Positions 3,883 through 10,551 of a stretch of 64,000 nucleotides of DNA are shown here, piece after piece. Location: contig JACRMR010000025.1 in the NCBI GenBank assembly GCA_016214895.1, positions 62,001 through 126,000 of the forward strand, given 5' to 3'. Each line of letters starts with the position of its first letter. Positions within the stretch are counted from its first letter, which is position 1. The position numbers and the translations under genes are program-made. This DNA comes from a candidate division KSB1 bacterium. GTDB lineage: Bacteria; Electryoneota; RPQS01. The notes beneath the pieces are model-generated. The model did not search any database and had not been told where the DNA came from. It saw nothing but the letters and a program-made list of their open reading frames with translations.

Positions 3883-5416
3883 CTCAGGCTGTTGGCAAAG
3901 TCCTCGCATTATTGCGGGGATTTTGTCTATTATCGGGCATCAGACGGGTGGGGAGCCGACGGAACTGGAGTTCGTGTCGATAGATACGCTGGTTCCGGCG
4001 GATCATTTGCTGCGGAAGACTGAGCGGTCGGTGGACTTTACGTTTATCCGCGAGCGGGTGCCGATTGATCCGGTGGTGTTGTTCAAGATGCTGTTCATCG
4101 GCTATCTGTTCGGCATCCGCAGTGAGCGCAAGCTGGTCGCGGAGATTCAGGTGAACGTGGCCTACCGCTGGTTCCTGGGGTTGACGCTGCAGGACAAGGT
4201 GCCGGACAGTTCGACGCTGTCGCAGAACCGGCGGCGGCGGTTTCGCGAGAGTACGATCTATCAGGAGATCTTCGACGAGATCGTCGTGCTGGCGATGCAG
4301 CGGGGGCTGGTGGACGGCCAGACGTTGTACACCGATTCGACGCATCTGAAGGCCAACGCCAACAAGCACAAGTTCGAGAAAGGGGTGGTGCAGAAGTCGA
4401 CGCGCGGCTATCTCGACGAGTTGGACGTGGCGATTGACGAGGATCGGCTCGATCACGGCAAGCCGGCGCGGAAGCCGACCGAACGCGGTCCGCTGCTGAA
4501 GGAGACGAAGCTCAGCACGACCGATCCGGAGAGCGGCTACATGGTGCGCGACGGCAAGCCCAAGGGGTTCTTCTATTTAGATCACCGCACGGTGGACGGC
4601 AAGCATAACATCATTACCGATAGTTACGTCACTCCCGCCAGTGTGCACGACAGCATTCCCTATTTGGAACGGTTGGACCGGCAGCGGGAGCAGTTCGGGT
4701 TCGCGGTCGCGGCGGTGGGCTTGGATGCGGGCTACAACACGGCCGCGATCTGTAAAGGATTAGAAGACCGGCACATCTACGGCGTGATCGGCTACAGCGG
4801 GCGCGCGCATCGCCCGGGCTTCTTCTACAAGCGGGAGTATCGTTATTACCGGCGTTCGGATCACTATGTCTGTCCGGCGGGTCAGGTGCTGCGCTACACG
4901 ACGACGAATCGTGACGGCTATCGTGAGTACAAGTCCGATCCGGACTTATGCGGGCATTGTCCGTTGCTCGATCTGTGCACGCAGAGTCAGAACCATGTGA
5001 AAGTGCTGACGCGGCACGTGTGGGAGCGCAGCAAGGAGCGGATTGGCGGTCATCGGTTGATGCAGCGCGGGAAGGCGATCTATCAGCAGCGCAAGCAGAC
5101 GGTGGAGCGCAGCTTCGCCGATGCCAAAGAGCTGCACGGCCATCGCTATGCACGGATGCGCGGCGTGGCGAAAGTCCAGGAGCAGTCGCTGCTCTGCGCG
5201 ATCGCCCAAAATATCAAGAAGATCGCCCTCCTCGCGGGCGGAAAGCTCCGGATCGCACTTTTCAACCTCAAAATCCTGCTTCACATCCTGCAAACATCCG
5301 CTACTGCGCTCGCCCCTCCGGCGCTCCAACCCATTCCCCTTCACCCGCGGAAGCGAACCTGACCTTCCCCAAGAACAAACCCCGCCAGAAATGACGGGGT
5401 TTGTCAGTAAGCTGAA
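3883..5416 (+). mobile_element. IS1182-type insertion sequence
   Basis: The element holds one transposase gene. Its ends look like imperfect terminal inverted repeats that each include a hairpin: left about 3883-3926 (CTCAGGCTGTTGGCAAA, then CCTCGCATTATTGCGGGG), right about 5374-5416, whose reverse complement reads CTTCAGCTTACTGACAAA, then CCCCGTCATTTCTGGCGGGG. The right hairpin (5379-5404) could also stop transcription of the transposase. I did not find a clear target-site duplication, so the exact termini are estimates. The transposase is more GC-rich than the genes around it. Confidence 0.72.
3923..5362 (+). CDS. IS1182 family transposase (DDE)
   Basis: 479 residues, the normal length for the family, apparently intact. 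The N-terminal DUF772-like region (DHLLRKTERSVDF, then YRWFLGL) is followed by a DDE catalytic domain: first Asp in LYTDSTHLKAN (about 139), second Asp in AVGLDAGYNT (about 267), and Glu in TVERSFADAKE (about 394). A zinc-binding-like CGHCPLLDLC lies between the second Asp and the Glu. The first possible start is a TTG at 3923, inside the left inverted repeat. It moves the element by cut-and-paste transposition. Adjacent AT-rich genes have different codon use, which fits a recent arrival. Confidence 0.9.
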   Translation: MSIIGHQTGGEPTELEFVSIDTLVPADHLLRKTERSVDFTFIRERVPIDPVVLFKMLFIGYLFGIRSERKLVAEIQVNVAYRWFLGLTLQDKVPDSSTLSQNRRRRFRESTIYQEIFDEIVVLAMQRGLVDGQTLYTDSTHLKANANKHKFEKGVVQKSTRGYLDELDVAIDEDRLDHGKPARKPTERGPLLKETKLSTTDPESGYMVRDGKPKGFFYLDHRTVDGKHNIITDSYVTPASVHDSIPYLERLDRQREQFGFAVAAVGLDAGYNTAAICKGLEDRHIYGVIGYSGRAHRPGFFYKREYRYYRRSDHYVCPAGQVLRYTTTNRDGYREYKSDPDLCGHCPLLDLCTQSQNHVKVLTRHVWERSKERIGGHRLMQRGKAIYQQRKQTVERSFADAKELHGHRYARMRGVAKVQEQSLLCAIAQNIKKIALLAGGKLRIALFNLKILLHILQTSATALAPPALQPIPLHPRKRT

Positions 5417-6357: not shown

Positions 6358-7077
6358 CTAATTGAGTTGGAGGTTTTTCAGTTCCGCCACAATGTCTGAC
6401 GGTTGAGCACGTCGGCGGTAGTCTGCGTCCACAAACGCCCAGCGGATGATGCGATTTCGGTCAATAATGTAAGTGGCTGCCAATGGCAACTCCCAAGATT
6501 TGTCATGGTTGTATGCGGGGATGTCCAGCCTGCCCCGATATTGATCCACAATGGACGACGGGATCTTATAGATAATTCCGTAGGCACGTCCCACCGCGTT
6601 ACCGGCGTCGCTTAGTACCTCGAATTGCAACGCGTGTTTTTCCAGCGTCGAAAGAGAACTGTCCGGAATCTCCGGGCTGACGGCAACGAGAGTGCCACCG
6701 GCCTTTTGTATTTCGGGTAACGCGACTTGCAAGTCGTGGAGAGTGATATTACAGTAAGGGCACCAGCCTCCACGATACCAAGTTAAGACGACAGGCCCAG
6801 TTCTAAGCAATTCACTAAGTCGAATCGGTTTTGATGCAGCATTAGGCAGCTCAAAGTCAGGCGCGGTAACGCCCACTTTCAGTGAACTCTCGACAACGCC
6901 GCTCAGTCTAACGCTATCAATCCCAGCTTCATATACCCTGGCTTTGTCAGTCGGTGCCGCACCCGAAAACTTGGCTTTCAATAAGTCGAGGTGTGCTTGA
7001 GTATCCGGAAGATCTTGGGACTTACTCACTATACTCATGAACAGCAGGGCTATGATCGCGACTGTAACATGACGCAT
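6358..7077 (-). CDS. Exported peroxiredoxin-like protein (AhpC/TSA, PRX-like2)
   Basis: 239 residues with an N-terminal hydrophobic segment (VTVAIIALLFMSIVSKS), so probably periplasmic. The thioredoxin-fold core begins near residue 70 (APDFELPNA), with the active-site motif GGWCPYCN near residues 103-110, a CxxC layout typical of the PRX-like2 branch that reduces peroxides or acts as a thiol oxidoreductase. Later motifs (GTLVAVSPE, AATYIIDRNRIIRWAFVD) match AhpC/TSA proteins. It follows the selenoprotein peroxidase-like gene by 154 nt on the same strand, so redox defence is a shared theme. The ATG at 7077 gives the intact signal sequence. Confidence 0.82.
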   Translation of the reverse strand: MRHVTVAIIALLFMSIVSKSQDLPDTQAHLDLLKAKFSGAAPTDKARVYEAGIDSVRLSGVVESSLKVGVTAPDFELPNAASKPIRLSELLRTGPVVLTWYRGGWCPYCNITLHDLQVALPEIQKAGGTLVAVSPEIPDSSLSTLEKHALQFEVLSDAGNAVGRAYGIIYKIPSSIVDQYRGRLDIPAYNHDKSWELPLAATYIIDRNRIIRWAFVDADYRRRAQPSDIVAELKNLQLN

Positions 7078-7231: not shown

Positions 7232-7765
7232 TCATTCTTCTAACTCAGCACCGAGGCCGTCAACCAATCTATTCACGTAGTTGAAGTAGGCGGTTACTTG
7301 GACGACCTGTGTGATTTCGAGGTCGGACATACCGACTGACTTCAAAGCGTTCACATCGTCCCGGCCGATGGTGCTTGGCTTCAAAGTAAGCTTGCGCGCA
7401 AATTCCACCATCCGCTGAACTCGTTGTGATTGTTCGCTGAGTGATTCGCTGTTCTTAAGTGCACTAATCAAATCCTCTGAAGCGCCCATGCGACGCAACG
7501 CGTCGCTGTGATGATGAATTCAATAGTGGCAGCCATTGCTGGAAGAGACAGCCACCGCCATAGCTTCCCGTTCGAGGCGCGTCAGGCCCGCGGTGGAAAA
7601 CATCGTTGCTTTGTAGGTGTCAAGATGACACCGCAAAAGCTCCGGATCGTGGCTATGAAGCTTATAGATATTGGCGACTGATCCCCGTCCATGACGAACC
7701 AAAGCGTAAACTTCGGCAAGGTCACCCGTCGCATCGTCTGGTTCAATGGTGTTGATGAATGGCAT
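7232..7765 (-). CDS. AhpD-like peroxidase-related selenoprotein (TGA = selenocysteine)
   Basis: Read with the TGA at 7520-7522 as selenocysteine, one 177-residue protein results. Residues 1-81 and 83-177 both fit the carboxymuconolactone decarboxylase/AhpD fold. The family's catalytic CxxC...HH motif becomes NGCHYU-IHHH, with Cys79 and Sec82. The matching Cys in ordinary relatives makes Sec the natural reading. A stem of seven perfect pairs with loop GUU lies 13 nt after the UGA, as a bacterial SECIS requires. AAGGG precedes the ATG. The gene is 16 nt downstream of the TIGR04282-type glycosyltransferase, in the ArsS cluster, whose families are repeatedly linked to selenoproteins. Expected role: thiol/selenol peroxidase. 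SelA-D are not in this window. Confidence 0.8.
7490..7522 (-). promoter_or_regulatory. Bacterial SECIS element with UGA codon
   Basis: On the minus strand the UGA (7522-7520) is followed by 13 nt, then GCGACGC (7506-7500), loop GUU (7499-7497) and GCGUCGC (7496-7490). The apical loop starts 20 nt after the UGA and its first base is G. Both features agree with the bacterial SECIS rule (loop about 16-37 nt from UGA, G among the first two loop bases). Confidence 0.75.
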
Positions 7766-7781
7766 GCATAACCCTTGTGTA

Positions 7782-8432
7782 TTACAATGTATTCTTGACT
7801 GCTTCCCAATCCGCTAGGGTGTCCACATCGCGCAAAACTTCTAATTCAGAATACGGCAGCCCAATGGAGCGCGCAGCCAGCTGCGTTCGCTCAAGAACTT
7901 CAGGGCTTCCCCATGGGATGTCCGCAAACAGCTCAGTTCTGACCTCACGCATTCCTAACAAATAATAGCCGCCATCCTGCGCGGGGCCGATGACGAGCGG
8001 AAAGCGGTTCAATTCGAAGAATGCCCGTTCGATGATTTCGCTGGTCAAACCGGGGACATCACTGCCCACGATCACCACCTTTGTCGCACCGCTCGCAAAA
8101 GCCGCTCCAGCACCCTCAAGCATTCGACTGCCCAAATCACCGCTGCATTGCACAGAACAGTTTGGGCGTTGACCAAAAGTCTTGTGAAATTCATCTGAGC
8201 TGCACGGCTCCGTCAATCTCACTTGCACTTTGATTCCGGCAGGAAGCGTCGCAATCAAGTCCTTCAATTTCGAAACAAGAAGTGAATAGATGCGAAAGGC
8301 CTCTGATTCTCCAGCTTCCTTGGCAAGTCGTTTCTTACATTTGCCGAACTCCGGCAACCGGGCAAGGCAGACCAGAGCGCAGTTAGATTGTTGCGCCGGT
8401 GCAGCTTGATCCAGATCCTGCTGTGCAGCCAT
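7782..8432 (-). CDS. TIGR04282-type glycosyltransferase (DUF2064)
   Basis: 216 residues from ATG 8432; a GTG at 8459 would add nine. The nucleotidyl/glycosyl-transferase-like Rossmann fold shows ALVCLARLPEFGKCKKRLAK near the N-terminus, VVIVGSDVPGLT in the middle and GPAQDGGYYLLGM, the typical DUF2064 signature. Families named TIGR04282 and TIGR04283 accompany the radical SAM protein ArsS and are labelled arsenosugar-biosynthesis glycosyltransferases; the true donor and acceptor are not shown here. Its start overlaps the end of arsS by 50 nt, which implies translational coupling. Confidence 0.82.
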   Translation of the reverse strand: MAAQQDLDQAAPAQQSNCALVCLARLPEFGKCKKRLAKEAGESEAFRIYSLLVSKLKDLIATLPAGIKVQVRLTEPCSSDEFHKTFGQRPNCSVQCSGDLGSRMLEGAGAAFASGATKVVIVGSDVPGLTSEIIERAFFELNRFPLVIGPAQDGGYYLLGMREVRTELFADIPWGSPEVLERTQLAARSIGLPYSELEVLRDVDTLADWEAVKNTL

Positions 8433-9426
8433 AACAATGATTCCGAGTTTCGATGACACGAGTTGTCAACTCCGGGCACCAGTCCCGAATGTGACTGGGA
8501 ACACCATGATTCACTCGCAGATCAAGCATCTGATTGAAGTCGCAGTCGTAGAGGAACCCTCGCCAGTCCACGGAGATCCCCGATCTGCACATGACGCCCT
8601 GAGCGGCATGCGGATTAAAGGCAGTGACTAACCGCTCCAGATAGCCTTCGTAATTATCACTGTCTATGAGCCAATTGAGAAAGCGGTTAATTGGCATATT
8701 ATTGATGCAGAAGAGCCTGTGAAACCGGATATTGTGCTCCTTGAGCAGACGTTGTTTGAACTCTTCTTCGAGACCGCTTTGGGGAGGCGCCAGAAAAGCT
8801 CCAACCGGATTATAGACGAGATCCAGTTTCAGATTCGACCCATCATGCCCATAGCCAAGTGAATTTAGTTTCTGCAAAGCCCTGATGGATTTCTCGAATA
8901 CGCCCTCGCCACGCTGAGCATTAGTTTGCTTGGGGAGAAAGAACGGCAGGGACGCGACGATCTCAACCTCGTGCTGCGCGAGGAACTCCGGAAGACTCTC
9001 CATGGGTGCCGTCGCGAGAATCGTCAGATTACAACGATCCATAACGTGTCTTCCGCGTCGCTTCACCTCTTCGACGAACCATCGAAAGTTTGGATTCAAT
9101 TCCGGCGCTCCGCCCGTGAGATCAATCACAGGAATCTCGGTCTTGTCGAGCACGTTGAGACACTCTTGAAACACTTCACGCGGCATGATCTCGCGCCTGT
9201 CCGGTCCTGCATCGACATGACAATGTCTGCACCGTAAATTGCATAACCGCCCAACATTGACCTGGAGTGTTGAAATCTTCTCCGCATGCAGTGCTTTCAA
9301 TCCTGCCGAGGCAAGCTTGTCATCGAATCGGATCGGGATCGCTCCGTCGAGCATTTTGATTTGCTCGGATACATTCGGCGGGTTTACTTTGATTTGTGAC
9401 TTGAGACTTGCCATTCTTACACTCAC
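8383..9426 (-). CDS. arsS: Radical SAM protein ArsS (rSAM/selenium-associated family)
   Basis: 347 residues from a GTG at 9426, chosen because AGGA lies seven bases before it; an ATG at 9414 has no good ribosome binding site. The SAM-binding [4Fe-4S] motif is CNLRCRHC near residue 60, followed by DLTGGAPELNP. The C-terminal Cys-rich tail HCYGCTAGSGSSC defines the TIGR04167 family, first named for its link to selenocysteine proteins and later called ArsS. In cyanobacteria an ArsS works with ArsM to build the arsenosugar's deoxyadenosyl part; no ArsM is present in this window. It lies 19 nt after the peroxidase-like gene, in a tight operon. Confidence 0.88.
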   Translation of the reverse strand: MSVRMASLKSQIKVNPPNVSEQIKMLDGAIPIRFDDKLASAGLKALHAEKISTLQVNVGRLCNLRCRHCHVDAGPDRREIMPREVFQECLNVLDKTEIPVIDLTGGAPELNPNFRWFVEEVKRRGRHVMDRCNLTILATAPMESLPEFLAQHEVEIVASLPFFLPKQTNAQRGEGVFEKSIRALQKLNSLGYGHDGSNLKLDLVYNPVGAFLAPPQSGLEEEFKQRLLKEHNIRFHRLFCINNMPINRFLNWLIDSDNYEGYLERLVTAFNPHAAQGVMCRSGISVDWRGFLYDCDFNQMLDLRVNHGVPSHIRDWCPELTTRVIETRNHCYGCTAGSGSSCTGATI

Positions 9427-9445
9427 TGATGATTCCTGAATGTCA

Positions 9446-9790
9446 TCACATCGAGAGCTTCTCGACAATGTTTCGCATCTGAACCCCGTGAACCAGGGAC
9501 GCTCCGCCGCGTATGGCTGCTGCGACATGCACGGCTTCGGTCATTTCTTCCTCAGAGCGACCGCGGTTCAGCGAGTCGTTCGTGTAAGCGTCTATGCAAT
9601 AAGGACACTGCACGGCGTGGGCGACGGCGAGGGCAATCAGCGCCTTCTCGCGGCCAGAGAGCGCACCGTCTGCAAAAACGGATCCATACCACTCGCTGAA
9701 CTTTTCCCAAAGCTCTTTATTGCCCTTTCCGATGTTTGCGAACTTGCCAAGGTCGTCAGGATTGTAGTAATTGCCCATCAGATGTCCCAT
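9446..9790 (-). CDS. Arsenosugar-cluster peroxidase-like protein (AhpD family)
   Basis: 114 residues, a full-length small AhpD-like protein. The motifs YYNPDDLGKF at the start, GREKALIALAVAHAVQCPYC around residues 46-65 and AAIRGGASLVHGVQM near the end match TIGR04169, the carboxymuconolactone-decarboxylase-like partner of ArsS. The redox motif is CPYC, with Cys rather than Sec. It is two bases downstream of the DUF547 frame and 19 nt upstream of arsS. A function as a peroxidase or thiol oxidoreductase in the pathway is inferred from the fold. Confidence 0.88.
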   Translation of the reverse strand: MGHLMGNYYNPDDLGKFANIGKGNKELWEKFSEWYGSVFADGALSGREKALIALAVAHAVQCPYCIDAYTNDSLNRGRSEEEMTEAVHVAAAIRGGASLVHGVQMRNIVEKLSM

Positions 9791-9792
9791 GA

Positions 9793-10551
9793 TTAGTTGC
9801 TGTCGAGTGACCAGTCACAATTTGTGCATTTTATGGATGCAGGTTTGTTCTTGTTGGCTGATTCGGCAATGTATTTTCCGACCAAACGCAACACACTCCC
9901 GGGGGCCTGTTCGAAGTCGGAGCTGTACCGCTTGAAGATCGGCGACACGTACAGCGTGTTCGTTGTCGCATCATAGCGGTTCTGTTCAGGTTACATCAGC
10001 AGAAATATCCTGGCCTAAACGTCAAGTTGATCGTTGAGGCGCTCTGAAAGACAAGCTTCGCTGCGCAGGCTTGGACCGCCCTTTGATGCGCAAACCATGT
10101 CGAAGTGAATGCCAGGCTCCCGATACCTGTCCCGGAGCATGTTCTTCTCGATATAGTCCAGTGAGACCACTTGGCCCAGCAAATCCACAAACGCGATTTT
10201 CCACGGAGAGCTGAACATACCGCCGATGTCTATAGTTGATTTCGCCGGATAATGCTCGATGATTAGCTCGATGGTTGCCGCATTGTAGATATGGACCAAG
10301 AACGCGAGCTGCTGAGACTGACTCCAACGATCGAACTCAGACCGTTCGACTTCACCAGCCTGCTCCAGAGAGTCTCTCAAAGTGGCTTGGCTTACCGTGC
10401 TGGCTGGATAGTCAATGCGGCCGTTCACCACACCTGACGTAAGCAGAGCACTCCGATCGGTGTATGTGTGATCAAATGCCAAAGCTTCTATGGACACTTC
10501 CCTGTACATGCTTATCAGTATTGCGAAGAGGAATGAAGTTCGTAAGGTCAT
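9793..10551 (-). pseudogene. DUF547 protein gene with two in-frame stops
   Basis: The first 178 codons encode an exported protein with typical DUF547 motifs (LAFLVHIYNAATIELI, SSPWKIAFVDLLGQ, SLDYIEKNMLR, GIHFDMVCASKGGPSL). The frame hits TAG right after QLDV, where the family normally continues with ARxFL, and nine codons later TAA. In between, and after, family sequence continues in the same frame (ARIFLLM, then NRYDATTNTLYVSPIFKRYSSDF) up to a TAA at 9793-9795. With both stops bridged it is 252 residues. DUF547 proteins are regular members of ArsS clusters. It starts with an ATGA overlap with the glycosyltransferase. Probably decayed; a function is unknown. Confidence 0.65.

Follow-up and report, generated by a model that had tools for sequence, protein, structure and literature searches.

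The gene at positions 7232 to 7765 (minus strand) of the window, that is, of the whole stretch of 64,000 nucleotides analysed here, is very probably a genuine selenoprotein gene of the AhpD-like family TIGR01926, in which selenocysteine (Sec) would be inserted at an in-frame TGA (7520-7522, minus strand; residue 82). This reading comes from sequence comparison, and it is based on the conservation of the TGA across relatives, the conserved frame, the set of SECIS hairpins found in the family and the presence of the Sec machinery. The gene, which has NCBIfam and Pfam matches, begins with the ATG at 7765, contains the internal Sec codon and finishes with a TGA stop at 7234-7232. The ORFs 7765-7520 and 7498-7232 (minus strand) share one frame, the TGA at 7522-7520 being the sole interruption, and once it is read through, 7765-7235 codes for a single protein of 177 residues (MPFINTIEPDD...SSSNGCHY-U-IHHHSDALRRMG...GLGAELEE). 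This 177-residue frame confirms the original prediction that two in-phase frames, split only by a TGA, join into one AhpD-like protein. The motif around Sec82 is NGCHY-U-IHHH, and the TGA lies at the second position of the CxxC/CxxU motif; its proposed location on the second Cys of CxxC was borne out by the motif and by homologues with TGA or Cys at this codon. Every test available supports its central claim, namely that the gene codes for a CxxU protein of AhpD type whose Sec codon is followed by a bacterial SECIS, and the reading corrects a gene which would be broken into two by standard gene callers.

The window protein is matched by TIGR01926 (peroxidase-related enzyme) in NCBIfam with 142.5 bits, the cut-off being 81.8, over residues 3-173, and by the Pfam CMD domain PF02627. 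Among solved structures, those closest to it are AhpD-like peroxidase-related proteins that are uncharacterised; the best of them is Mlr4105, a putative antioxidant defense protein (PDB 3c1l, E 1.4e-24), which is, however, a Cys form. The relay residues described in PA0269 from Pseudomonas aeruginosa and in AhpD from M. tuberculosis are Glu, Cys, Tyr/His, Cys and His (PMC3141380). Both the CxxC active-site hairpin and the relay positions of these two proteins are matched by the window protein, where Glu67, Cys79, Tyr81, Sec82 and His86 correspond to the five AhpD proton-relay residues according to the motif spacing of PA0269. As this spacing is shared, Sec would take the place of the second active-site Cys, although the similarity to AhpD and PA0269 is at family level only.

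By analogy with these enzymes, the window protein may well have peroxidase or thiol-redox activity, and it is also by analogy that we infer its function, its substrate and its partner. The segment Cys79-His-Tyr-Sec82 would sit in the all-helical AhpD core, where Sec82, as a selenol, would most likely attack peroxide or accept electrons. Cys79 would then resolve Sec82 as a selenenylsulfide, to be reduced by a putative dithiol reductase. A possible partner is the AhpC/TSA-family redoxin encoded downstream on the same strand (6358-7077, minus).

AhpD-like selenoproteins with a CxxU motif were reported in 2005 from the Sargasso Sea set (27 sequences; PMC1088965) and in 2008 from the GOS data, as 'AhpD-like 1' of COG2128, with 299 Sec sequences (PMC2398784), which agrees with the earlier statement that such proteins are known from metagenomic surveys. 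The table of a 2026 review explicitly includes TIGR01926 with CxxU (PMC13188914). The window gene is thus an additional member of a selenoprotein family known since 2005, and this family of selenium-dependent redox proteins gains a well-supported case. The window protein shares with the TIGR01926/COG2128 CxxU proteins the family itself, the CxxU motif, Sec at the second Cys and a downstream bacterial SECIS, whereas it differs from them in its lineage, in its location beside an arsenosugar-type cluster and in the existence of a Cys paralogue in the same genome. The NF041238 (AhpD_rel_CFYUT) and NF041047 (GSU3128-family) (seleno)proteins are likewise AhpD-related with CxxU, but the window protein lies far under the NF041238 cut-off (43.8 of 175 bits) and NF041047 does not appear among the matches listed for it.

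The state of the Sec codon was followed in the homologues. Among 60 related genomes, the closest homologue belongs to another genus of the same family; its corresponding codon is likewise TGA (NDCHY-U-LHHH), it is 59% identical to the window protein, and its genome also carries selA. The Cys paralogue of the window genome (G000:C20:278359-278886, NSCDYC) shows 52% identity. In other genomes of the window's family the site is occupied by Cys (three), Gly (GGG, L026) or Ala (GCG, L028), the series of Sec, Cys, Gly and Ala forms within this family being taken from G001, G002, G003, G005, G008 and G009 (loci L022-L026 and L028). The comparison of Sec and Cys homologues that had been proposed together with the original prediction yielded TGA or Cys at the codon and no random stops, apart from the two sisters with Gly or Ala, which indicate that some relatives can do without this residue.

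Outside the family, TGA homologues were also found on named genome contigs of a Holophagales assembly and of a Bacillota assembly. When the two phyla concerned were searched, exactly one in-frame TGA was present in 54 of the best 60 matches of the first (the phylum of G061, e.g. L057-L086) and in all nine best matches of the second. Altogether, 43 homologues from several phyla, counted among the fetched loci at E < 1e-10 and with no ambiguous base beside the codon, carry TGA exactly at the Sec codon. Judged by this codon, the predicted Sec form is the prevailing one in this AhpD branch within one large sampled phylum, most of whose TGA homologues are probably split in standard annotations; we found no statement of this high Sec share in the papers searched, all from an open-access library. 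Relatives detected in a plasmid search all have less than 60% identity. One homologue, L061 (G337:C68:224-700), contains an extra in-frame TAA in addition to the Sec TGA, probably because it is a pseudogene or was wrongly assembled.

A SECIS-like hairpin is located at 7490-7506 (minus strand), starting 13 nt past the TGA, with a 7-bp stem formed by GCGACGC (7506-7500) and GCGUCGC (7496-7490) and an apical loop GUU (7499-7497). The bacterial SECIS rule applied here, including the spacing (PMC13188914), asks for a loop of 3-9 nt with G in its first two positions, a spacing of 16-37 nt and an MFE of -7.5 kcal/mol or lower. The window hairpin agrees with it (loop GUU 20 nt after the UGA, -12.8 kcal/mol), but taken alone it is not beyond chance: when synonymous codons were shuffled, a control that leaves the protein unchanged, 22% of the shuffles did just as well in score and 63% passed the rule. 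The position, the 7-bp stem, the GUU loop and the 13 nt given in the original prediction are correct, whereas the single hairpin is weak as evidence and the strong argument is that of the family, from which its significance derives. Under the same shuffling, the rule was passed by 42 of the 43 Sec genes against 17.3 expected (mean z -1.59), and by 4 of the 18 Cys homologues against 5.4 expected (mean z +0.11), that is, with no excess. In stems centred on the loop, 37-43 of the 43 Sec genes retain each of pairs 1-6, with C-G, G-C, A-U, G-U and U-A pairs and changes on both sides (covariation), and the apical loops are nearly all GG or GU. For this count the loop was picked in each gene for the longest stem, which biases it toward pairing, so the synonymous shuffle is the fairer test. 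A scan of the window against Rfam gave no match.

The genome from which the window comes (3.2 Mb, 98% complete) has selA, selB, selC and selD, which the original prediction had proposed to look for outside the window. With these genes present, and with TGA or Cys at the codon in homologues, neither of the two findings that the original prediction would have taken as its refutation was made. One contig holds selA, selB and the tRNA-Sec within about 21 kb, the latter scoring above the Rfam cut-off and having the anticodon TCA (UCA). The selD gene (G000:C12:250371-251294) has itself an in-frame TGA (LVRCAG-U-ASKMD), falling within CAG-U-ASK on the known Cys/Sec site of selD. Since selD would be Sec-coding and the machinery is complete, there should be at least two selenoprotein genes in this genome, and UGA should be actively decoded as Sec. 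In the window gene, SelB and the Sec-tRNA(UCA) would decode the UGA at 7522-7520 as selenocysteine, aided by the hairpin just downstream. A search of the window for more read-through TGAs yielded 149 candidate frames, and of the 45 longest ones listed, examined by eye, only this gene has a recognisable motif across the TGA.

The genes upstream of the selenoprotein gene lie on the same strand and several of them carry arsenosugar biosynthesis names in NCBIfam. Immediately upstream, after a gap of 16 nt, there is an arsenosugar-biosynthesis-type glycosyltransferase gene (TIGR04282, 7782-8459, minus), with which the selenoprotein gene is probably co-transcribed. It is preceded by the gene of the radical SAM protein ArsS (TIGR04167 in NCBIfam; 8383-9528, minus), whose true start is probably downstream of the ORF start, and by that of a TIGR04169 arsenosugar-associated peroxidase-like protein, a Cys form (QCPYC) also recognised by NCBIfam (9446-9790, minus). 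Further upstream are a DUF547 remnant, TIGR04283, an FAD oxidoreductase and a VTT-domain protein. The ArsS family is given as GxxU in a review (PMC13188914); the ArsS of the window ends in ...GSSCTGATI, with Cys at that position (C-terminal GSSC), and is hence no selenoprotein. In the DUF547 gene (9790-10551, minus) one frame runs through a TAG and a TAA (QLDV*ARIFLLM*PEQNRY), and these two in-frame stops give it the look of a pseudogene that decayed recently. An intact transposase-like ORF of 479 aa, judged by eye, is located near the cluster at 3923-5362.

About 2 kb upstream, the DUF547 gene with its two stops shows that nonsense mutations do arise at this locus, a point against the Sec reading, and the Cys paralogue with 52% identity in the same genome could complement a lost function. 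On this view the gene would be a young pseudogene, its TGA having arisen by nonsense mutation. This is very improbable, as the stop is a TGA placed precisely at the catalytic Cys, and TGA recurs at this codon, accompanied by SECIS hairpins, in the sister genus as well as in numerous genomes from other phyla, which strongly disfavours an accident. Besides, the downstream half is still under selection: the window protein and its nearest TGA homologue agree in 64% of their amino acids before the TGA and in 55% after it, and the differences at codon positions 1/2/3 are 19/19/53 before and 32/23/67 after. A true stop would release the second half, and the persistence of the third-position bias past the TGA consequently points to purifying selection on the downstream part. 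Equally hard to credit, and hardly to be expected at all, is that the gene yields two separate polypeptides, or that some other suppressor acts on the UGA and inserts, for example, Trp or Cys. A TTG start candidate does exist in the downstream half, but this half alone would be without half of the AhpD core; another suppressor is opposed by the complete Sec system and the second Sec gene of the genome, selD, and the residue that homologues show at this position is Cys instead of Trp.

A different proposal, compatible with the Sec reading, is that the selenoprotein is real but specific to the arsenosugar/ArsS cluster, acting in organoarsenic redox chemistry instead of general peroxide defence. 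The 16-nt gap to the TIGR04282 gene and the clustering with ArsS, TIGR04169, TIGR04283 and the FAD oxidoreductase speak for it, as does a related FAD oxidoreductase adjoining two Sec homologues (L119 and L129). However, in 39 regions around homologues the ArsS-cluster genes are nearly absent, several of the contigs being short so that this absence is not full proof; a few regions have an FAD oxidoreductase, an AhpC-like gene, DUF547/VTT or YjeF, and the Sec gene of the sister genus adjoins an MFS transporter. Co-occurrence with the ArsS cluster is thus not conserved despite the adjacency seen in the window, and so specific a role is rather unlikely. As far as it has been tested, the operon link to ArsS is local to the window genome. 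Related to this, the original prediction joined two selenium-associated families in one operon: ArsS is indeed adjacent and a true TIGR04167 protein, but it is a Cys form in an unconserved neighbourhood, so the connection was overdrawn.

Returning to the Sec reading of the window gene, the Sec, Cys, Gly and Ala forms that close relatives show at this position, together with a Sec/Cys pair of paralogues in one genome, provide a natural series on the benefit of selenium in the AhpD fold. It is conceivable, though doubtful, that Sec was ancestral and prevailing in this AhpD branch, across several phyla, that in the window's family Cys, and even Gly or Ala, repeatedly took its place, and that the Sec copy acquired an organoarsenic-related role; this last point is suggested by its place in an arsenosugar-type operon, the Cys paralogue lying elsewhere in the genome. 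The protein tree was made by a quick method from 53 rows and its root was not inferred, so the direction of the Sec change is one that we infer. In this tree the window's family is a clade (SH-aLRT 99) that mixes Sec, Cys, Gly and Ala forms, and the rows outside it are mostly Sec. The labels Sec and not-Sec need 5 changes, and repeated loss of the predicted Sec within the window's family would fit this topology.
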